Source: an uncultured Eudoraea sp.
GTDB taxonomy: Bacteria > Bacteroidota > Bacteroidia > Flavobacteriales > Flavobacteriaceae
Assembly: GCA_947258555.1 (NCBI GenBank)
Contig: CAMYJF010000007.1
Coordinates: 59,531 to 100,140, forward strand
Reading direction: 5' to 3'
DNA length: 40,610 bases
In this document: positions 12,156 through 21,491 of the stretch, piece by piece
Layout: each line of letters begins with the position of its first letter
How positions within the stretch are numbered: position 1 is the stretch's first letter
Made by a program: the position numbers and the translations under genes
The notes under the pieces: generated by a model
Databases searched by the model: none
The model's input: only the letters and a program-made list of their open reading frames with translations
Told to the model about the DNA's origin: nothing

Positions 12156-13211
12156 TTAAAATTGGACACCAAGTTGTGTAGGAAACTGCCCGGGTATTTC
12201 TGTTTTATCTTCCCCGAGATTTTGACGCAAATCAATTTCAATACCCCTTGATATGGTGGATATGGGAACATCATTTGCTGTACCTTCAAATGGATTTTCT
12301 CCGGTACGACCTATTCGTTCCATCGTATGGAACATCCAGGCCACCGCCATATAAACAGGAATGGAAAACCATATGAAGTTTTTCCCTAAGGGACCGTAAT
12401 TCTCGATAATCTCTTTGCCTATATCAACAAATTGGGGAGCTAATGCCAAAGGGAGGAGTAAGAGTAAAAGCCACATAAAATAGTGGTTTAAAGTTGCATA
12501 TTGACGCGGGTACGGAAAATTCTTAATGCGTTCTGTCTGCCCTTGTAATGTGAAAAGTTCCTGAATAATACCTTCCAGTTCCAGAAATGAAAATTCCCAG
12601 ACAAGCCCTATCTCTTTTAATCTCCGAAGGTGATGAGATTGCAAATAGAGAACAGCAGTTTGATGATTATCGTGGTTCAGAACATACTCCAAATCCTCAG
12701 CAGATAAATACGGTTTGAGGTCATCTTCGAGCGCTGCTTTCTCTTCCGGAGGTCGTACACCAAACTCTCTATTGGTTTTATGCAAGATGGCCGTCTCCCA
12801 GTTTTTTTTATTGCGCATTGCATGACGTAAAGCTGTCATCCAGGCAATATGTCTGTAGGTTAGGGTCTTTATCTCTATTTTGAGCTTTTCAGAAGAGACA
12901 TCTTCCTCGGCATGCTCAGATGAGACCATGTCTTGTACAAAGACACCAAAAGTACGGGACGTATTTACAATACCCCCCCATATTTTACGCGCTTCCCATA
13001 TACGGTCATATACTGCGTTGTTTTGAAATCCAATGATAAAGGCTACGGCCGTACCGATCAGTGCCATAGGTGTCCAGGGAATACGAAGCCATTCCATATC
13101 CAGAAAATAATAGCCTGCAACCCAAAACAAAATAATGAACAGAAATAATAATGTTTCATAACGCGTCCATTTCACCATGTCGATGAATCTATAAACCTTC
13201 CCAGTATACAT
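12156..13211 (-). CDS. Bestrophin-family (RFP-TM) channel protein
   Basis: A 351-residue membrane protein. The N-terminal helix pair and the sequence TAVAFIIGFQNNAVYDRIWEARKIWGG match the bestrophin-family signature 'G..ls.flgFR.n.aYdRwwEar..wg', and the late helix RIGRTGENPFEGTANDVP is the conserved C-terminal end. Two hydrophobic regions frame a cytoplasmic middle (HLRRLKEIGLVWEFSFLELEG). Known bestrophin homologues are pentameric anion or cation channels. The ion here is unknown. It lies 11 bp from the NTF2-like gene upstream. Confidence 0.88.
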   Translation of the reverse strand: MYTGKVYRFIDMVKWTRYETLLFLFIILFWVAGYYFLDMEWLRIPWTPMALIGTAVAFIIGFQNNAVYDRIWEARKIWGGIVNTSRTFGVFVQDMVSSEHAEEDVSSEKLKIEIKTLTYRHIAWMTALRHAMRNKKNWETAILHKTNREFGVRPPEEKAALEDDLKPYLSAEDLEYVLNHDNHQTAVLYLQSHHLRRLKEIGLVWEFSFLELEGIIQELFTLQGQTERIKNFPYPRQYATLNHYFMWLLLLLLPLALAPQFVDIGKEIIENYGPLGKNFIWFSIPVYMAVAWMFHTMERIGRTGENPFEGTANDVPISTISRGIEIDLRQNLGEDKTEIPGQFPTQLGVQF

Positions 13212-13222
13212 ATGTTGTTTGT

Positions 13223-13612
13223 TTAGTTTTTTAATTGGTTTACAAGCGTACGAGCTAAAACTGTATCGTAAATTATTTTCAACTTTTTAATTTTATTAGC
13301 ATCGTTGAATTCAATAACATCCACCACGTCAAAAGACACTATTTCCTGAGTCTTTAACGTCCATTTGTAGGTAAAATACAAGGCAATATCTGAACGATTT
13401 TCTTCTTCAAAGATCCCTAGGAGCTCGAGCTTAGAGGCTTTCGTATCAGCCTGCAGCTCACGATAAAAATCGGAAGCTTTTTTAAGACCATAAATCGGAG
13501 AATCTACAATGGCATCCTGACTGAATAGATTCAAGAGTTGCGATATATCGCCATTTTGGAGGAATTTCAAATAATTTTTAGCGATACTACTTCTGTTCCC
13601 CATTGGAATCAA
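13223..13612 (-). CDS. NTF2-like (SnoaL-type) protein, cytoplasmic
   Basis: A 129-residue protein without signal peptide. The pattern is an NTF2-like domain: SIAKNYLKFLQNGDISQLLNLFSQDAIVDSPIYG, then strands EENRSDIALYFTYKWTLK and SFDVVDVIEFNDANKIKKLKIIYD. An alternative start is the Met at residue 4. It is probably the first gene of the run down to 9629. Ligand unknown. Confidence 0.78.
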   Translation of the reverse strand: MIPMGNRSSIAKNYLKFLQNGDISQLLNLFSQDAIVDSPIYGLKKASDFYRELQADTKASKLELLGIFEEENRSDIALYFTYKWTLKTQEIVSFDVVDVIEFNDANKIKKLKIIYDTVLARTLVNQLKN

Positions 13613-13988
13613 GGTCTTTTAGAAAGGTATGTCAATTTAGAATATGGAAAATACAAAATATTCATCTGTCTCCGCATACATCTGCGATATTAGGATCGAC
13701 TGTGGAAACATGAATAATAGGTAGCCCGGAGTATGGTTTTAAGAATGAGTATGGGTCTGCTATTCGAACCTGGATCCGGAAAGATTCTCACAGCCTTTTA
13801 AGGCTAATTATGGCAGGCACTGAGCCTTGATTGGAAGACACCCTGAGATTTGATAAGAATTAGTATATTTACTCATGTGAGAAAGTATGAACTCATGCCA
13901 AAACCATGCCCCAATTATAATAAATAAGAACGTTCATACTAAAATCAAACAACCAAAAAGATCTCCCTTATTAATACCGGGTTTTAAC
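13613..13988. other. 376-bp divergent intergenic region with small repeats
   Basis: This space lies between the divergent NTF2-like and cyclase genes and should hold both promoters. I see a short inverted repeat, AGCCTT-TT-AAGGCT, at 13792-13805, and two ACTCATG copies at 13871-13877 and 13891-13897, exactly 20 bp apart (two helical turns). An in-frame ORF extension covers 13887-13988, but its residues look non-domain, so I treat it as leader. No promoter box was convincing. Confidence 0.5.
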
Positions 13989-15944
13989 ATGCAGAATAGT
14001 CCACCAAAGCAAAGGCACTTGGCGTGCATCATGTTTACTGACATTGTGGGGTATACTCGATTGATGAGTAAAAATGAAAGTAAAGCCCTGCAAACCTTAG
14101 ATGAAAACAGATATATCCATAAAACCATTATCAGCAAATACGGGGGTGAATTGCTAAAGGAAATGGGGGATGGTATCATGGCTATTTTCAATACGGCTAC
14201 TGATGGGGTATATGCGGCATGTGAAATTCATGCAGCAGCAGAAAACAATGAAGATCTTAATCTCAGGATCGGCTTGCATTACAGCCAGATTATCTTGGAA
14301 AAAGGAGACATTTTTGGAGATGGGGTCAATATAGCTGCCCGGATAGAGCCCACTGCGCCAACTTGTGGCACCCATATTTCTCATGAAGTATATGACAATC
14401 TCTTAAATAAGAAAGGCTTAAAAATTGACTTAGTTGGTGGTTTCGAATTAAAGAATCTGAGCGAGGAGATCAAAATTTATTCTGTTGAGGTAAATGCACA
14501 GTTCATAAAGGATCTGGCATCCAGAACCAGCGATTATACGGAAAGATCGATCCTGGAAACTAAAAACAGTATTGCAGTTATTCCTTTTGCGAATATGACG
14601 GGCGATAAAGAACAGGATTATTTTTGCGATGGGATTGCTGAAGAAATTCTGATCACACTTTCGAACATTAAGGAGCTGAAAGTCGTAGGAAGAAGTTCCT
14701 CCTTCCAATTCAAAAACAGCGAATATTCGGAAGTACAGATCGCCGGGACATTGAATGTAAATCATATTCTCCAGGGGAGTATACGAAGGAGGGGTAACAG
14801 ATTACGGATCAATGCCATGTTATACAGTGTGGGCGAAGAAAGCCAGATCTGGGCCAAGCGATACGACCGTGAGCTTGATGATATATTTGAAATTCAAGAC
14901 GACATTGCCGCAAAGATCTCCGATGAACTTGAAGTAAGCCTTGTCAAGAATACAGACAGGGCTAAACCCGTTAGTTTGGAAGCCTATGAAATGCTTCTAA
15001 AAGGCCGGTATTTTGAAGAAATGTTCATCGAGGGATTTGATAGGGCGCAGAGCTGTTATTTCCAGGCAGTTGAGCTGGATCCTGATTATGCGGAAGGATA
15101 TGCTGCCCTGGCCAATATTCATTTCCTACAAACCATGCATTTACTCCTTCCACCTCAGGAAGGATTCAAAAAGACTAAATCTTTTGCCAATAAGGCGCTA
15201 TCCATCAACAAGGAGATCGCAGGCGCACATTTTGTGCTTGGGCAATCGGCTTTTTGGTTCGACTGGGATTTTGATCAGGCAAAGGAACACTATGAAAATG
15301 CGGCCAATGCCCGTGTGCCATATTATTTTACAGGGGTAACCTTAGATCCCTGGTATAATGCATTTGCATATGGGGATTATGAAACAGCTATCATCAACAC
15401 AATGAAGATCATAGAAACTGATCCGCTGTCCTTTTACAATCAAGTGTTGTTAGGTTATTATTTTACCTGGGGTCAGTATCATGAAAAAGCCCGGGAAGTA
15501 CTCAACAACTTATTGAAGTTAATTCCAAATTACTCTGAGGCCCAACGCTTACTGGCCTATAACAGCTTTATTGAAGGGGATAATGAAAGAGCCGTTAAAG
15601 AAGGCAAAAAAGCTGTGGAGATGGCCCAGGGACTTGGCTGGGCGCAGATTACCTATAGCATTGCCCTGGCAAAAAACGGCCAGGCAGCAGAAGCCAGGGA
15701 GATCCTTGTAAGATTGGAGGCTTCTCAGGAAAAAGTGAATGTTTCTCCCTTGGGAATTGCGCTGATCTATGCCTATCTCAACGATCTTGACAATGCCTTT
15801 GCGTATTTGGACATTGCAATAGAATACAAAGATATTTGGCTTGTTTCTCTTAAACATGGCCCGGAATACAAACCGCTCCGATCAGATCCTCGATTTGATG
15901 CCCTCCTCGAGCGAATAGGTTTTCCGGAAACTGTTTTTCAATAG
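13989..15944 (+). CDS. Class III adenylate/guanylate cyclase with TolB/CadC-like domain and TPRs
   Basis: The start at 13989 (MQNSPPKQRHLACIMFTDIVGYT) is preferred because class III cyclase domains begin a few residues before 'FTDIVG'. The 651-residue product has a cyclase domain at about 10-170 with metal Asp residues D18 and D61 (KEMGDG), K57 at the usual adenine-contact position, D111 and the N114/R118 pair (GDGVNIAARIE). A domain starting SIAVIPFANMTGDKEQDYFCDGIAEEI (about 195-330) resembles the TolB/CadC-type 'FANxSxD..xxyFsdGlteei' module. TPR-like repeats follow (YFQAVELDPDYAEGYAALA and more). No membrane helix, so cytoplasmic. It likely makes cAMP or cGMP in response to a partner binding the TPRs. 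Only 30 bp separate it from the catalase-like gene. Confidence 0.88.
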   Translation: MQNSPPKQRHLACIMFTDIVGYTRLMSKNESKALQTLDENRYIHKTIISKYGGELLKEMGDGIMAIFNTATDGVYAACEIHAAAENNEDLNLRIGLHYSQIILEKGDIFGDGVNIAARIEPTAPTCGTHISHEVYDNLLNKKGLKIDLVGGFELKNLSEEIKIYSVEVNAQFIKDLASRTSDYTERSILETKNSIAVIPFANMTGDKEQDYFCDGIAEEILITLSNIKELKVVGRSSSFQFKNSEYSEVQIAGTLNVNHILQGSIRRRGNRLRINAMLYSVGEESQIWAKRYDRELDDIFEIQDDIAAKISDELEVSLVKNTDRAKPVSLEAYEMLLKGRYFEEMFIEGFDRAQSCYFQAVELDPDYAEGYAALANIHFLQTMHLLLPPQEGFKKTKSFANKALSINKEIAGAHFVLGQSAFWFDWDFDQAKEHYENAANARVPYYFTGVTLDPWYNAFAYGDYETAIINTMKIIETDPLSFYNQVLLGYYFTWGQYHEKAREVLNNLLKLIPNYSEAQRLLAYNSFIEGDNERAVKEGKKAVEMAQGLGWAQITYSIALAKNGQAAEAREILVRLEASQEKVNVSPLGIALIYAYLNDLDNAFAYLDIAIEYKDIWLVSLKHGPEYKPLRSDPRFDALLERIGFPETVFQ

Positions 15945-15974
15945 CGTTCTGTATTAATCCATTAACCCACCAAC

Positions 15975-17546
15975 ATGAGCAAATCAGGTAATAGTACTCC
16001 AGAATTAGGACGTGAATACTTACTGTCCAATGAAGATGCCATCATCCAGGAAATGGTGAACGAGATGGAGGATCAAATGCTGCGAATGTATGCCGATGAT
16101 GACAAGCATATGCCGCGACAAGTGCATACTAAAAGCCATGGCTGTGTAAAAGGGATCTTCAAGGTGGAGCCAAATCTTGACGCGAAATACAGAGTAGGCG
16201 TCTTCAAAGAGCGTAAAGAATACAATTGTTGGGTGCGATTTTCCAATGCCAACCTTCCACCGGAAAGCGACAAGAAAAAGGATATTCGAGGCATCGCTAT
16301 TAAACTTATGGGAGTTGAGGGTGATAAGATATTGAACGGCAAACAGAATGAAAAGACCCAAGATTTCTTGCTGATGAGCAGTGAGACCTTCTTTTCTAAG
16401 AATATAAAGGAATTCAGCCCGCTGTTAAGGGCTGCAACGGCAGAGAATAGTAAAAAACTGGTGCTAAAATATGCACTTACCCATTTGAAGGTGATCATGC
16501 GACTGGTGAAGTCGCGAGTTGCATGCGATAACCCCCTAAATATTCCCTATTGGAGTACACAGCCCTATCGTTTTGGTGACCAGGACACGGCAGTGAAATA
16601 CTATCTTGAACCTTCCAAAGAGAATGAGATCCTCAATGAGGATGTAAATGAATATTCCTATCTACGGATCAATATGGCACAAACGCTCAGTGTTCATGCA
16701 CAAGAGTTTGAATTCTATGTGCAATTCCAAAATGATCCTGTTACAATGCCCATAGAAGATCCTACCGTTCCATGGGATTCTGAGTTTGTACAAGTGGGCA
16801 CTTTAGTCATTCCTGCCCAGCAATTTGATAGCACGGAACAAATGGAATACGGTGAAAACCTGTCTTTCAACGCCTGGCATGCACTTCCGGAGCACAGGCC
16901 ACTTGGCAATTTTAACCGGGCAAGAAAACGGGCCTATGTGGCCATGTCCAAATTTCGCCATGAGTACAATGGAACACCCGATAAGGAGCCCAGGGATTCT
17001 GCCGATTTTTTAGACGGTACCCATATCCCGGAAGGCAGCACTATCCCGCCTAAGATCCCCACTAAAGGGGTAATAGAAATGCAGGCCCAGGTTATTGTGG
17101 ACTGTAGTAAGGAGATCGCCTTTAACTTCATTACGAGTGGTGCAGAACTTCCCAATTGGCTAAAAAAAGTGGGAAAGATACCTGCTGCCCTAAATGCAGA
17201 AAACTTGGGTAAGACTTATAACAAAAGCGGCGATCAGCGCATCGTTTATTTTGACGGCGGAGAATCGGTACATGAAGAATTACTCACATTTAATCCGTTT
17301 GCCAATTATTCCTATAAGGCCAGCAAGTTCACCAATGTGCTAAAGAAGTTTTCGGATGAGGCCTATAGTCAGGTATGGTTTGACACCATGGATGATCAGA
17401 CGCGTATAACATGGAATTATATTTATACAGCAAAAAACTTCATCGCACGCTTCTTACTCAAGTTTATATTGCGCTTGATCAAGTATGAGGAATTCATGGA
17501 AGAGAGCCTCGAGAACGCCAAGGATTACATTGAAAACGGAGACTAA
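15975..17546 (+). CDS. Catalase-like haem protein fused to an SRPBCC domain
   Basis: A 523-residue protein. Residues about 35-340 match the catalase fold: H51 in RQVHTKSHG (distal His position), WVRFSNA, DIRGIAIKLMG, N125 in NGKQNEKTQDFLL (distal Asn position), EHRPLGNFNRARKRAYVAMSKFR with R317-x3-Y321 at the proximal Tyr position. Regular catalases are longer here and the ends differ, so it belongs to the divergent 'catalase-related' group that includes peroxidase and allene-oxide-synthase-like enzymes. Residues about 365-520 form an SRPBCC (START-like) ligand-binding domain: VIVDCSKEIAFNFITSGAELPNWLKKVG to TRITWNYIYTAKNFIARF. Reaction unknown; a lipid peroxide substrate is an inference. It follows the cyclase by 30 bp and overlaps the DyP gene end by 4 bp. 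Confidence 0.83.
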   Translation: MSKSGNSTPELGREYLLSNEDAIIQEMVNEMEDQMLRMYADDDKHMPRQVHTKSHGCVKGIFKVEPNLDAKYRVGVFKERKEYNCWVRFSNANLPPESDKKKDIRGIAIKLMGVEGDKILNGKQNEKTQDFLLMSSETFFSKNIKEFSPLLRAATAENSKKLVLKYALTHLKVIMRLVKSRVACDNPLNIPYWSTQPYRFGDQDTAVKYYLEPSKENEILNEDVNEYSYLRINMAQTLSVHAQEFEFYVQFQNDPVTMPIEDPTVPWDSEFVQVGTLVIPAQQFDSTEQMEYGENLSFNAWHALPEHRPLGNFNRARKRAYVAMSKFRHEYNGTPDKEPRDSADFLDGTHIPEGSTIPPKIPTKGVIEMQAQVIVDCSKEIAFNFITSGAELPNWLKKVGKIPAALNAENLGKTYNKSGDQRIVYFDGGESVHEELLTFNPFANYSYKASKFTNVLKKFSDEAYSQVWFDTMDDQTRITWNYIYTAKNFIARFLLKFILRLIKYEEFMEESLENAKDYIENGD

Positions 17547-18982
17547 TTGTCTTTCTTAGGGGGTAGTGTACACAGGTAGCGTACACTCGTAATAGATGGG
17601 AAAAAGAAATACGCCCCTCCCCGAATTGTCACAAAGCGTTTTAGATCTTTCACTGTCTTATTATAGGGCTCACCTTGAATTGTAAATTGCTGTTGTTGCC
17701 CCTCTTCCGGTTTCTCCACTACACCAATAATTGGGTCCGGATCAATATAGAGTTGTTTGATCTTAGGGTAATTAGACCAGGTGTATTGCAGGAATTCAAA
17801 TTGCCGACTGATATCAGCGCCAAAGCATGTAAAATACAAGCCAACTTCTCCTTCCGGATCATGGTTGGTCGGAGAACTGATGATCGGTTCACCATATAAT
17901 CGCGCCCTTCGTATTAAACGATGCCTGTTACTCAGGATGATGGACTTTTCTTTTGAATCGTGTTCAAAGTTGTCCCTGGGATTCATGCGCCTTAAATGGG
18001 ATCCAAACGGACATTTGGCTCCGGTCCTGTCATCGTCATAATACAGAAAATCATTGTCGTCACTGGCACCCCCTGGGTCTTTGTCCGGGAATTTGCTCAG
18101 CGGTGCACCACTAGGCCACCTGCCAAACATTTGGGAAGCTAATTTTATACTGGCTTCCTCATTGATGGAATCATCGGTATTTTTGGTCTCTTCATTCATA
18201 AAATCCCAAAACCGGTCTACATGCTCCTGCATTTGACGTATGATCAGATAAGTGCCATTTTTACCCAGGTCTCTAGACCCTGGACGCGCCCCACTTGGAG
18301 GCAGTAAGTTAACATCACCCTGTTCTTTAAATATGGCGGGAGAATCCGGAAAGACAAAGTAATTATTCTCGTATCCCAGAATAAACTCCCCGGGATTCAC
18401 ACAGTTGTAATCCGGTCCTGTTCTCCCGCTTCCTTTAACAATAGGTTGTGCAATGCCATCCCTAAATCCGAAATGCTCCTTATTATCTGGGAGAGTTAAT
18501 CCATCCAGTTTGCGAACTTCCCAGAGTCCGCTAGCTTCAAAATCTGATTTTAGCTCCTGGTAATAGGCCATACATGTGTTTTTGTCCTTGCCGAAAACCA
18601 ACAGTATGATCTCTACAGCTTCATTATTCTTGCCGCCCCACTCCCAACTATCCGGATGGCTGCTATCAATATCACCTAAAAGCCGGTGCCTGTGGTCTGT
18701 GACCATGCCTTCCTTAAAGGGAGGTGAAAATGAATCCAGGTTTTTCTTATCTAATCCCAAAGCGGTTAATCCGTCTTTGGCAAATGCGATATTGAGTCCT
18801 CTATCGGGCAATTCGTCTTTGTTTACTTTGACGGCATTGGTCAATTGGTCACAAATGGTCTTTATCCATTTCTTGGCCTGGGAATCTTCGGTGATCTTTA
18901 GCAAGACAAAACGGGAAAATTTCATATTTCCGTATTCTCTTAGGACATAGCCCTGGACATCTTCTAATTCTATGGTATACAT
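17543..18982 (-). CDS. DyP-type peroxidase
   Basis: A 479-residue haem peroxidase of the dye-decolorising (DyP) family with no signal peptide. The catalytic Asp is D175 in FGFRDGIAQP, matching the GxxDG signature. The proximal haem His is H329 in CPFGSHLRRMNPRD, and distal Arg candidates are R358/R359 in HRLIRRARLYGEP. The N-terminal beta-alpha-beta half (MKFSRFVLLKI) and the second half fit the duplicated ferredoxin-like fold. It oxidises dyes or other reductants with H2O2; the natural substrate is unknown. It is last in a tight minus-strand operon (6 bp after the preceding gene) and runs tail to tail into the catalase-like gene. Confidence 0.9.
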   Translation of the reverse strand: MYTIELEDVQGYVLREYGNMKFSRFVLLKITEDSQAKKWIKTICDQLTNAVKVNKDELPDRGLNIAFAKDGLTALGLDKKNLDSFSPPFKEGMVTDHRHRLLGDIDSSHPDSWEWGGKNNEAVEIILLVFGKDKNTCMAYYQELKSDFEASGLWEVRKLDGLTLPDNKEHFGFRDGIAQPIVKGSGRTGPDYNCVNPGEFILGYENNYFVFPDSPAIFKEQGDVNLLPPSGARPGSRDLGKNGTYLIIRQMQEHVDRFWDFMNEETKNTDDSINEEASIKLASQMFGRWPSGAPLSKFPDKDPGGASDDNDFLYYDDDRTGAKCPFGSHLRRMNPRDNFEHDSKEKSIILSNRHRLIRRARLYGEPIISSPTNHDPEGEVGLYFTCFGADISRQFEFLQYTWSNYPKIKQLYIDPDPIIGVVEKPEEGQQQQFTIQGEPYNKTVKDLKRFVTIRGGAYFFFPSITSVRYLCTLPPKKDN

Positions 18983-18988
18983 GGGTTG

Positions 18989-20467
18989 TTAGATAAGTTC
19001 GAAAAATTTCTTTGCCTTTTTTTCACTCAGGTTTTTGGCGAGCAAGACACGGATCCTTGAATTATTGTTTACGTTCTTGATGGATAGATCAGGATACGCG
19101 GAATACCAAATATTTGTAGGTAATTCAGTAGACCGGCTCCATGCCAGGAAATGTTCTTCGTCATAGGCCCCGCCCGGAAAGAACATCTTTGATTTGGGAA
19201 GAATATTTTTCATAGAGAAAAATCCGGTCGAACCCAGCCAATTGGTCTTTGGAAAAAAAGTAGTATTCGAAAAAATGGCTGATAATCCCCATCCGCTCTG
19301 ATCGATAAAATCGCCTAAATACTGTTGCCAACTTCCATCAAAATTGGAAAAGAATAAGACGCGCTTATTATCATCAAACAAGACCCAGCGTGCAAAATGT
19401 ATGGTAGGAATATTTAGAAGTTTTCCCTCGACGTACCAGATCGGAATTATTACTCTGGCAAATAACATCATCGCTTTGAAGGTGATGAGGCGTACTTTTC
19501 CCGGCTTCATATCTACGAGTTGACTGAATTGGTTCTGATAATTGATAACCATGTCTTTTTTTGGTTGTGTAGTTGCTATATCAACTGCAAATCCTTGAAC
19601 AGGTTCGGGTCGTTCTCCATCTGTAAGATCCTCGTATTCCTCAAGTATTTCTGTATTTTTCCGAGGGATATCACTCCGGTAAGTAGTAAAATATTTGTCA
19701 TATTTCTCATGACCAAACTGTACGATAAAAAGCCAAATAATGATTACTGGCAGCAATAAGACAATTACAAGTACGAGCAAGCATAGTTTAAATACACTGT
19801 TCTTTGGCATGCGATACTTAGTATCCGTAATGGTAATATTGTGATCATTTGAAATCAGCAATTTTAACTTTCGATGAATTTCTTTTGCAGACAGATCTTT
19901 CCATTTATCCTTGTTATCATCCAACTCTTTACGCAAGCGCACCCTTAGTTCATTCTCTTCTTTGATTTGGGTTACACTGCGCCGTGGGCTACCCCTATAA
20001 AAGGCTGAAACTTTGACTATATGATCACGTAAATAGTCTTTTCGTGTTTTATGAGTTCTATTACTGGATTCTGGGTAACCAATGCAACAACTATATATCT
20101 GGTCTGTCAAAGTATGACCATCTGAATACACGGCCATACCGTCCATTTTCTGAATGGATGCCAATTTATCTGTAGAAAGATCATCCAAATGATGCCCGAC
20201 ACTTTTATCAAAATTAGAGGAGAAGACTAACTTGGGTTTTAATGAATCCGCATTTTTTTTATGCTTGAAGAATTCAGATTCTTTATCATCAATTATGATC
20301 CAACGCAAATAGTGTACTTCCTCATATAGATCCTTGAATTTAGAACGCTCCTCAAACCCCTGGATATTCTCAAGGGTATATTTCATGTAATCTAATATTT
20401 CGCGTAACTCTTCTAGTTTATCAGGCCTTATAGGCGTGATCACGGTCAGTGGATTTTGACGGCTCAT
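18989..20467 (-). CDS. Membrane protein with a duplicated HxxRW...DD...SNFD module, unknown function
   Basis: A 492-residue protein I cannot place in a named family. One hydrophobic helix (about 226-250, FKLCLLVLVIVLLLPVIIIW) divides it in two. Each half carries the same order of residues: H52-Y-L-R55-W56 with D60-D61 and S84-N85-F86-D87 in the first, H357-F-A-R360-W361 with D365-D366 and S374-N375-F376-D377 in the second. The H-to-DD spacing is identical; the first half has a 15-residue insertion before SNFD. The N-terminal strand/helix style (LTVITPIRPDKLEELREIL) recalls a ferredoxin-like fold, as in the neighbouring DyP enzyme, but this is inference. It is 4 bp after the patatin gene and 6 bp before DyP. 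Confidence 0.75.
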   Translation of the reverse strand: MSRQNPLTVITPIRPDKLEELREILDYMKYTLENIQGFEERSKFKDLYEEVHYLRWIIIDDKESEFFKHKKNADSLKPKLVFSSNFDKSVGHHLDDLSTDKLASIQKMDGMAVYSDGHTLTDQIYSCCIGYPESSNRTHKTRKDYLRDHIVKVSAFYRGSPRRSVTQIKEENELRVRLRKELDDNKDKWKDLSAKEIHRKLKLLISNDHNITITDTKYRMPKNSVFKLCLLVLVIVLLLPVIIIWLFIVQFGHEKYDKYFTTYRSDIPRKNTEILEEYEDLTDGERPEPVQGFAVDIATTQPKKDMVINYQNQFSQLVDMKPGKVRLITFKAMMLFARVIIPIWYVEGKLLNIPTIHFARWVLFDDNKRVLFFSNFDGSWQQYLGDFIDQSGWGLSAIFSNTTFFPKTNWLGSTGFFSMKNILPKSKMFFPGGAYDEEHFLAWSRSTELPTNIWYSAYPDLSIKNVNNNSRIRVLLAKNLSEKKAKKFFELI

Positions 20468-20471
20468 GCTG

Positions 20472-21491
20472 TTATACTTGTTGGAGTTTGGTCCTTTTTG
20501 CTTCTAAAGTTTTAAGATAATCAAAATATCGATGAACTCCGACTCGTCCTGCTGTCATCAAATCCTCCTTTTCTTGATCTGTCAGATCAAATTTTGTGGC
20601 AGAGATGCCCAAATCATCTATAAATACGGTTCTGCGCACCAAATAACTCTCTTCAAAAATTGCTATGTTCTGAGAATTCATTAAGGTGTTGAACAGGTGT
20701 TTTACATAACTGGTGATCCATTTATAGTACTTGAATTTGTTAAGATGCTGCGCGATCGATTGCTGCCTGTGTTCTTGCCGTTTTTCCGATTCCAAAGGAT
20801 CGATCTGGAACATTTCATAGACCTTTTGTTGTTCAAGAAAAAGACCCAAGGTCTCTTCATTGGGTGCCCATGGATCGTCATTGAATCGCCTTTTGTCAAA
20901 AAACGACAAAGGATAATTAAAAGTCACCCCCCCATCCACATAGATATGGTCATTGGGTATATTATTCGAGAATTTCCAGCTTTCGAAAAAGAAGGGGATG
21001 GACATGGATGCCCTTATTGCTTCAGCCACGATACAATGGGGAGTCTGGTATTCGGAGAATTCATTTATTGTATTCTTGTTCAAATTTGAGGCAAATACAA
21101 TGAGATCAAGCCCACCTGCTTTTTGTAATTCCTTAAACGTCGTATTTCTATCCGGTCGTAAGGGAGAAGCATCATAACATTCATAAATGAAAGTAAAGAT
21201 CTCCTTTCCGCTGTATAATCCGTATTTTCCGAAAAACCGCAAGGGACTCCAACCCTGCTTAAATCTTCGAAAATCGAGCTCTTTCATGAGCTCCTTAATT
21301 TTCTCCGGGGATAATTTCAGGGCTATCATCAAAGCTACTAATGCACCAGCCGAGGTGCCTGAAACTCTTTTTATAGATTCGTAATGACCTAACTTATGTA
21401 ATTCCTCAAGGGCACCTACATACGCTATGCCTTTAACGCCTCCGCCTTTTAAGGCTAGATTTTTAATGTTTCTTTCCATGAAGTCTACCAT
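20472..21491 (-). CDS. Patatin-like phospholipase
   Basis: A 339-residue protein with the complete patatin catalytic set: oxyanion loop GGGVKG at 16-21, nucleophile S47 in GTSAG, and catalytic D186 in VDGG. Patatins are Ser-Asp dyad acyl hydrolases releasing fatty acids from phospholipids or other acyl esters. A helical C-terminal region (IAQHLNKFKYYKWITSYVKHLFNTL) may aid membrane contact. No signal peptide; cytoplasmic or peripheral. ATGs at 21491 and 21479 are both possible; I keep the first. It is first in the operon with the duplicated-module and DyP genes, linked by gaps of 4 and 6 bp. Confidence 0.9.
   Translation of the reverse strand: MVDFMERNIKNLALKGGGVKGIAYVGALEELHKLGHYESIKRVSGTSAGALVALMIALKLSPEKIKELMKELDFRRFKQGWSPLRFFGKYGLYSGKEIFTFIYECYDASPLRPDRNTTFKELQKAGGLDLIVFASNLNKNTINEFSEYQTPHCIVAEAIRASMSIPFFFESWKFSNNIPNDHIYVDGGVTFNYPLSFFDKRRFNDDPWAPNEETLGLFLEQQKVYEMFQIDPLESEKRQEHRQQSIAQHLNKFKYYKWITSYVKHLFNTLMNSQNIAIFEESYLVRRTVFIDDLGISATKFDLTDQEKEDLMTAGRVGVHRYFDYLKTLEAKRTKLQQV

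Follow-up and report, generated by a model that had tools for sequence, protein, structure and literature searches.

We describe here a locus of five genes in a stretch of 40,610 nucleotides (the window) from an uncultured Eudoraea sp. of the Flavobacteriaceae (assembly GCA_947258555.1, contig CAMYJF010000007.1, positions 59,531 to 100,140 of the forward strand). The genes encode a class III nucleotide cyclase, a catalase-like haem protein, a DyP-type peroxidase, a patatin-like phospholipase and a 492-residue protein with a duplicated module, for which we use the name MOD (Table 1). The locus is a real and widespread gene system with an unnamed core protein family. Its near-invariant core is the MOD-DyP pair; the patatin and the TPR-type cyclase are additions in some lineages.

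Genes at the Locus

All five open reading frames (ORFs) are intact and arranged as the first-pass annotation had described them. The patatin and MOD genes are 4 bp apart and the MOD and DyP genes 6 bp apart; the DyP gene meets the catalase-like gene tail to tail with an overlap of 4 bp, and 30 bp separate the latter from the cyclase gene. The start that had been assigned to the cyclase, 13989, requires correction: it is an internal ATG (Met35) of an ORF that opens at 13887. The catalytic residues ascribed to the patatin are both present (S47 in GTSAG and D186 in DGG), and the duplication inside MOD is recovered as a divergent repeat, the N and C halves being 21% identical (E = 4e-7).

The cyclase (54.3 bits; cut-off 21.9), the patatin (112.4; 27.7) and the DyP (DyP_N 46.2; 27.5, and Dyp_perox_C 30.5; 20) all score above the Pfam cut-offs. 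By its score and its Ser-Asp dyad the patatin belongs to the patatin-like phospholipases. In the genome of the organism (2.73 Mb in 104 contigs) the DyP and the catalase-like queries match one gene each, both at this locus, so their co-location is more than chance. The same genome has four patatin and five cyclase matches.

Table 1. Features of the locus, with positions in the window
Feature	Length (aa)	Position	Strand	Basis
Class III nucleotide cyclase with TolB-like and TPR regions	685	13887..15944	+	PF00211, E=1.7e-14
Catalase-related haem domain (~20-340) and Bet v 1/SRPBCC-fold domain (~365-521)	523	15975..17546	+	
DyP-type peroxidase	479	17543..18982	-	TIGR01413, DyP_N, Dyp_perox_C
MOD, membrane-anchored tandem ferredoxin-like (ABM-like) protein	492	18989..20467	-	Predicted model
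Patatin-like phospholipase	339	20472..21491	-	PF01734, E=4e-32
SnoaL-like (NTF2-fold) gene, divergent from the cyclase, possible accessory		13223..13612	-	PF12680, 30.5 bits (cut-off 27)

Linkage of MOD and DyP

A profile scan anchored on MOD alone, covering the genomes of 84,980 species, recovered 469 relatives. Of these, the 80 best were retained (L025-L104) and their ORFs labeled with profiles for MOD, DyP, catalase-like proteins, P450, patatin and cyclase. The ORF caller, with a threshold of at least 90 residues, gave no MOD ORF in L095 and L099, which were dropped, and misread the GC-rich plasmid loci L012, L015, L016, L017 and L019, for which the annotation of the record was used. Linkage was judged in the 75 loci with over 600 bp of sequence on the right-hand side of MOD. 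A DyP gene follows MOD on the same strand within 200 bp in 72 of them, at a median gap of 10.5 bp. The exceptions are L063 and L100, where DyP is 219 and 406 bp away, respectively, and L074, where there is none. The first-pass annotation had proposed that the 492-residue family be examined for recurrence with DyP, catalase-like and patatin genes, and in the MOD-anchored scan that recurrence is strong.

The linkage was also approached from the other side. Fourteen plasmid loci were drawn from DyP matches (81 records), picked for diversity and not at random; the Streptomyces record was already known through MOD and the Deinococcus record through the catalase-like protein, and three Nostoc loci are near-copies. 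MOD lies beside DyP in 13 of the 14, with one gene between the two in Streptomyces; the Mycetohabitans locus has no MOD. That the linkage of MOD and DyP is real is close to certain, and we have very little doubt that the two form a functional unit.

The MOD family is present in at least nine phyla when the kept loci and the plasmid loci are taken together. The kept loci come from Bacteroidota (54), Pseudomonadota (8), Myxococcota (5), Armatimonadota (4), Nitrospirota (3), Planctomycetota (2), Acidobacteriota (1) and Actinomycetota (1), and two are unplaced. A tblastn search with MOD against 72,556 plasmids returned 31 records, and in several of the regions fetched the module is fused to DyP and P450. 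In samples of genomes taken by phylum the family is sparse: a protein search found MOD in 1 of 296 genomes and the profile in 2 of 395, namely the window's own and a weak match of 30 positions. The viral contigs searched contained no relative of MOD. A literature search of titles and the starts of abstracts, with little subscription content, found no description of a set of MOD, DyP and catalase or P450.

The MOD Protein

MOD could be assigned to no family of Pfam, NCBIfam or PADLOC (the best Pfam match is Vpu at E = 0.29), and its sequence has no convincing match among solved structures. It consists of an N module (about residues 1-220), a hydrophobic helix (225-256, with a hydropathy peak of 3.51 within 220-254) and a C module (about 300-492). 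A model predicted from 74 sequences (predicted local distance difference test score, pLDDT, 87.1; predicted template modeling score 0.88) aligns, both halves together, with WhiE-ORFI (9lmn, Z 14.5, root-mean-square deviation 4.1 over 226 residues) and Abx(+)O (9ltx, Z 11.8). Further matches are two putative monooxygenases (Z 9.6 and 9.3) and a sulfur oxygenase reductase and an anthrone-oxidase-like protein (6.6). A Foldseek search by itself returned nothing for the model below E 0.001. As both halves pack as one barrel, the helix probably anchors the protein and does not simply span the membrane.

By fold alone, and in a predicted model, MOD belongs with the ABM-like alpha+beta barrels, a membership that implies no function. 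It shares the fold with ABM and dimeric alpha+beta barrel proteins such as WhiE-ORFI, Abx(+)O and HmoB/IsdG, but differs from them in the want of a convincing sequence match, in the inserted hydrophobic helix and in a conserved signature of its own (H..RW / SN.DG.W..YL.DF). H357, W361, N375, D377, W380, Y383 and D389 are among the residues invariant in all 74 rows of the alignment. DyP, the IsdG-type haem-degrading proteins and chlorite dismutase are placed in one alpha+beta barrel superfamily in the accessible text of an earlier study (PMC4835899).

The DyP Peroxidase and Its Deinococcus Relative

The DyP of the window is a member of its superfamily by profile (TIGR01413, 110.4 bits against a cut-off of 100.5) and by its motifs, GFRDG at 172 and HLRRMNP at 329. 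Among the 76 DyP ORFs of L025-L104, GXXDG is found in 73 and the proximal HxRxxNP in 74; there are four exceptions, two of which are cut by contig ends. The protein has no hydrophobic N-terminal signal, its highest 19-residue hydropathy being 0.87, at 455.

The solved structures nearest to it are 8re3 and 8re2 (E = 1e-48), which match end to end the DyP of a plasmid trio in D. radiodurans. That protein, DrDyP (DRA0145), is thus the closest solved relative, and its gene stands in a trio of MOD, DyP and catalase. The two loci differ in that the D. radiodurans MOD has a single module and no patatin or cyclase is annotated in the stretch fetched; DrDyP also has GXXDM in place of GXXDG. In the part of the DrDyP paper that is accessible, the enzyme is inactive with hydrogen peroxide (H2O2) at physiological pH, and its authors regard the physiological role and substrates of DyPs as still unclear (PMC10820274). 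The words "catalase" and "operon" do not occur in the text of that paper (PMC10820274).

The Third Haem Protein: Catalase-Like or P450

The label catalase-like/SRPBCC, under which this protein was first annotated, fails by a little on Pfam scores and is borne out by the predicted fold. The catalase profile PF00199 scores 24.0 bits against a cut-off of 25 and matches residues 46-117 only, which leaves the protein outside the canonical catalases; the SRPBCC profile PF10604 scores 24.6 against 27.4. An AlphaFold model (pLDDT 86.6) recovers both a catalase-related and a Bet v 1/SRPBCC fold. By VIA alignment its nearest structures are an allene oxide synthase (AOS)-lipoxygenase (LOX) protein (3dy5, Z 24.0), a catalase-related protein (3e4y, Z 23.2) and catalases (Z 22.6-21.6), values of Z that cannot separate AOS from catalase. 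With Foldseek the model also matched Bet v 1, PR-10 and PYL folds, in keeping with the C-terminal part of the protein.

The similarity to 3e4y extends over 278 residues and, with RQVH (the distal His) and NRARKRAY in the window's protein, places it among the catalase-related minimal haem proteins. A sequence profile run against solved structures at E 1e-4 found only the MAP catalase-related protein (3e4w/3e4y, E = 1.3e-11), a chain of 320 residues which differs in having no C-terminal Bet v 1-like domain. Of the 29 homologues longer than 300 aa in L025-L104, 28 have the distal-His motif, all have NRxRxxxY, and 22 exceed 500 aa. The protein of L032 (10963-11994) has Glu at the distal-His position, unlike the other 28 homologues. 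A 1001-residue ORF in the Gemmataceae genome of L070 (L105, 1897-4902) is catalase-like in its N-terminal third (E = 3.5e-73).

Partners were counted in the 52 complete loci, that is, those with at least 5 kb on both sides. A catalase-like gene is present in 26 and a P450 gene in 16, and no locus has both; the one kind of partner tends to stand in for the other. At least three changes of partner are forced by the starred branches of the MOD tree, which is of a quick kind with long branches flagged, 27 rows without a partner being excluded from the count. Fisher tests (P = 1e-6 for catalase-like against P450; 1e-13 for catalase-like with cyclase) are given no weight here, the loci being related.

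A genome-wide search for the catalase-like gene covered 33 genomes through 34 chosen loci. The 10 genomes of catalase-type loci gave one match each, with a second in one of them, and in 19 of the 23 genomes of non-catalase-type loci the gene was found nowhere. In the genomes of L051, L070, L089 and L104 it is present but, within the limits of the stretches fetched, not near MOD. A position near MOD, suggested by coordinates in the Methylococcales genome of L104, was rejected as the fetched stretch contains neither MOD nor DyP.

The P450 partner can be part of the same polypeptide. Single-protein P450-MOD-DyP fusions occur in Alphaproteobacteria (Pararhizobium, Novosphingobium and Sulfitobacter), a MOD-DyP fusion occurs in Rhizobium, and in L102, from a metagenome-assembled genome of Acidobacteriota, the ORF after MOD is labeled DyP+P450. 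Proteins of about 700 residues with P450 in the C-terminal half lie beside MOD-DyP in L045 (6082-8175), L058 (6055-8166), L064 (5878-7992), L066 (11053-13146), L070 (3022-5166) and L103 (4339-6375). In the three scanned (L045, L070 and L103) a GST C-terminal match precedes the P450; it is above the Pfam cut-off in L045 only.

A census of the neighbors of the 22 P450-type loci (121 proteins in 117 families, with every family of at least two members covered) contained neither ferredoxins nor ferredoxin reductases as a family with more than one member. Redox partners beside the locus were therefore dropped as a candidate, and the lack of a recurrent one is what P450s driven by hydroperoxides would show. 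An ABA4-like membrane protein (PF14108) is encoded at 8 of the 22 (e.g., L058, 11017-11469). Lipoxygenase as a substitute in the loci without either partner was likewise rejected: the neighbors sampled there are transporters, a kinase, a protease, a transhydrogenase and proteins without a Pfam family.

Patatin and Cyclases as Additions

The five-gene order of the window is unbroken in L026, L027 and L069, and recurs, interrupted by one or two additional genes, in L029, L030 (Olleya) and L031 (Lacinutrix); both L025 and L028 match it as far as their contigs extend. Outside the window, 13 loci have a patatin gene at most 100 bp upstream of MOD. It occurs somewhere in the stretch in 13 of the 26 complete catalase-type loci, within 100 bp of MOD in nine.

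The window's cyclase belongs to class III. In addition to its Pfam score, it has FTDI, KEMGDG and GDIFGDGVNIAAR, with the metal-binding Asp and the N...R residues, and aligns with 3mr7, its best solved relative (E = 8e-21). A weak match to the TolB profile lies at 225-348. Relatives of this cyclase adjoin the catalase-like gene in L026-L031 and L069, and in Pararhizobium a TPR-cyclase gene is directly upstream of the P450-MOD-DyP fusion. In Cyclobacteriaceae and several Chitinophagaceae, MOD-DyP and the catalase-like gene are accompanied instead by a cyclase protein of about 1,700 residues; the one giant cyclase scanned (L052, 128-5341) has kinase, AAA, GAF and guanylate cyclase domains. A cyclase is present in all 26 complete catalase-type loci (4 of the TPR type, 22 of the giant type), and one complete locus, L056, has a cyclase without a catalase-like gene. 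Cyclases of two builds thus stand beside the core, and nucleotide cyclases of differing build have been attached to it more than once. The N...R motif was matched by pattern in 23 of the 24 cyclase-labeled ORFs of more than 1,000 residues in L025-L104, and in 7 of 7 TPR cyclases.

Next to the SnoaL-like gene of the window (Table 1), and close to the cyclase, is a gene for a bestrophin-like channel (12156-13211), a relative of which is truncated at the end of the related locus L026. Another SnoaL_2 family occurs in six MOD loci and a DUF4440 family in five (one member of each was scanned).

Single-Module Trios on Plasmids

Outside the duplicated form, the module also occurs singly beside DyP (about 190-250 residues in the trios). 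Of the 22 single-module/DyP plasmid loci fetched (L012-L019 and L110-L123), 14 have trios of catalase-like gene, MOD and DyP. The trios are from Proteobacteria, Actinomycetota and Deinococcota: Rhodococcus, Acinetobacter, Ketogulonicigenium, Sphingomonas, Agrobacterium, Microvirga, Deinococcus, Roseomonas, Novosphingobium, Methylorubrum, Haematobacter, Sphingobium, Shinella and Paracoccus.

Genes of fatty-acid metabolism are found in the fetched stretches of several trios. Oleate hydratase, whose substrates are unsaturated fatty acids according to the accessible portions of two papers (PMC7948970, PMC8994360), is encoded in five of the 14 (Agrobacterium, Roseomonas, Novosphingobium, Sphingobium and Shinella). 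A 3-hydroxyacyl-CoA dehydrogenase is encoded in seven, the same five together with Acinetobacter and Deinococcus. In L115, L118, L121 and L122, which represent four genera, genes for oleate hydratase, 3-hydroxyacyl-CoA dehydrogenase, a thioesterase and a TetR protein are divergent from catalase-like/MOD/DyP in identical order. Transposase genes are present in three of the four, which gives the appearance of a mobile cassette.

A protein of about 340 residues may be a further partner. Its gene follows MOD-DyP on the Nostoc plasmids (L111, 7350-8390; L112, 7350-8390; L114, 7362-8390) and sits between MOD and DyP on the Streptomyces plasmid (L117, 3947-4960). The Nostoc and Streptomyces copies are 62% identical, and the L111 copy has no Pfam match.

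Proposed Function

The first-pass annotation had read the five genes as a lipid-oxide module. Patatin beside MOD in 13 loci, the Bet v 1/SRPBCC and catalase-related folds, and oleate hydratase and 3-hydroxyacyl-CoA dehydrogenase on some plasmids are in favor of it; the "oxylipin-type signal" of the same annotation is a more conditional proposal. We consider the chances about even that the locus has a role in processing lipid (hydro)peroxides, and gene content, motifs, predicted folds, linkage, fusion and replacement are observed, while the substrates, the order of reactions, complex formation and any signaling are inferred. The locus would then be a membrane-associated unit. MOD, as an anchored tandem ABM-like barrel, and DyP would act jointly on a lipid: they would oxygenate an unsaturated acyl chain, or else reduce or activate its hydroperoxide. 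The catalase-like protein, or P450 in other lineages, would rearrange or reduce the resulting hydroperoxide, and the Bet v 1-like domain of the former may hold the lipid or the product. The patatin would release free acyl chains from membrane lipid. The cyclase may turn the state of lipid oxidation into a cyclic-nucleotide signal, or may regulate the unit.

The exchange of the third haem protein has a precedent. Known oxylipin pathways, in the accessible part of the literature, pair a lipid oxygenase with a haem enzyme that rearranges the hydroperoxide (PMC11719350). Corals and cyanobacteria use a relative of catalase for the rearrangement, plants and fungi a P450 (PMC11719350, PMC5617202, PMC13049297). 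The partner exchange beside MOD-DyP resembles this exchange, and we therefore propose DyP and MOD in the oxygenase or peroxide-activating place; the replacement of catalase-like protein and P450 repeats that of oxylipin biosynthesis and so argues for a shared reaction type. As far as these sources go, the coral AOS-LOX and the cyanobacterial fusions of catalase with lipoxygenase or haem dioxygenase likewise join a minimal catalase-fold haem domain to a lipid-oxidizing partner (PMC11719350). They differ from the locus, which has DyP and MOD beside the catalase-like protein in place of lipoxygenase or haem dioxygenase, and which adds the C-terminal Bet v 1-like domain, the cyclase and, in some lineages, the patatin. 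The fungal fusions of haem dioxygenase and P450 (linoleate diol and allene oxide synthases) are similar in that P450 is fused to a second haem enzyme (accessible text of PMC13049297, PMC11719350), but here the fusions are bacterial and the partner is DyP and MOD, not a cyclooxygenase-like dioxygenase. More tentatively, and on balance doubtfully, the locus may belong to oxylipin signaling proper: DyP and MOD would make or activate membrane lipid hydroperoxides, the catalase-like protein or P450 would convert them to a specific oxylipin bound in the Bet v 1-like domain, and a dedicated cyclase would pass on a cyclic-nucleotide message.

Several observations weigh against a role in lipid peroxide processing. 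Of the 52 complete loci, 10 have neither a catalase-like nor a P450 gene, eight of the 22 single-module/DyP plasmid loci have no catalase-like gene (Bradyrhizobium, Granulicella, three Nostoc, Gloeothece, Streptomyces and Mycetohabitans, the last also without MOD), and the Methylorubrum populi trio has P450, ferredoxin and reductase together with catalase-like protein, MOD and DyP, so replacement does not hold everywhere. The stretch has no patatin in 13 of the 26 complete catalase-type and 15 of the 16 complete P450-type loci, and all 16 of the latter are also without a cyclase. The first metal-binding Asp motif was matched in just 15 of the 24 giant and 6 of the 7 TPR cyclases; some giant cyclases may thus be degenerate, or the pattern is too strict. 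The catalase-like family has Val, Ile or Ala before the distal His, where coral AOS has Thr. Four of the five oleate-hydratase neighborhoods have the same gene order and look like one moved cassette, so the five count as two independent cases, and the counts of fatty-acid genes near trios stand without a random-anchor background. Enzyme activity is read from context and predicted fold, and the folds nearest to MOD are those of polyketide enzymes and may indicate different substrates. Finally, lipoxygenase (PF00305) and haem dioxygenase (PF03098) had no match in the organism's genome, a weak negative since the control genomes gave none either, and the source of hydroperoxide is accordingly unproven. 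Two fatty-acid desaturase matches in that genome make unsaturated acyl chains plausible.

Alternatives

Other substrates must be weighed against acyl peroxides. MOD may be an ABM-like oxygenase or decarboxylase acting on a non-acyl lipid or aromatic compound (a quinone, polyketide, carotenoid or terpenoid), whose product DyP and P450 or the catalase-like protein would oxidize. The top folds of MOD, WhiE-ORFI and Abx(+)O, are in keeping with this, as are the recurrent SnoaL-like genes and the ABA4-like genes at P450-type loci; in plants ABA4-like proteins act on epoxy-carotenoids. The neighbor census, which for this purpose covers P450-type loci alone, nevertheless turned up no family of polyketide or terpenoid synthases with more than one member, and patatin and oleate hydratase point to acyl chains, so that we hold such substrates to be quite unlikely. 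It is unlikely, too, that the locus serves general protection from peroxide stress, with DyP and the catalase-like protein removing H2O2 or small organic peroxides and the patatin and cyclase being bystanders or general stress regulators. Two peroxide-using haem families do stand side by side with the motifs of both intact in the window, and the trio occurs in D. radiodurans. Yet the DyP of that very trio is reported, in the accessible text, as inactive with H2O2 at physiological pH (PMC10820274), fatty-acid genes lie near several trios, and MOD and the P450 partners would be left unexplained.

A cyclase beside a phospholipase also recalls anti-phage signaling of the CBASS or Pycsar kind, in which a cyclic nucleotide made by the cyclase would activate the patatin or MOD to damage the membrane. 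There is a similarity between the patatin and CBASS phospholipase effectors (E = 1.6e-14 in PADLOC; E = 7.6e-12 for CBASS_lipase of NCBIfam), and the cyclase weakly resembles PycC (E = 5.6e-9 in PADLOC, which has no cut-off there). The CBASS_lipase score, however, is 45 bits against an equivalog cut-off of 200, and PADLOC run on six proteins of the window, a scan that did not extend to the flanks of the related loci, found no CD-NTase match and no defence system. Moreover, the near-invariant core is MOD-DyP, and DyP, MOD and the catalase-like protein have no PADLOC family at E 0.01; the complete P450-type loci have no cyclase, and only one in 16 has a patatin. We regard a defence function as very improbable.

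Implications

The locus gives a whole branch of DyP constant partners and hence a testable role, with lipid hydroperoxides and MOD, rather than dyes, as what to try. If the oxylipin-signaling proposal held, the pathway would be one unlike those of lipoxygenase and cyclooxygenase, and the DyP peroxidases of this branch would be lipid enzymes.

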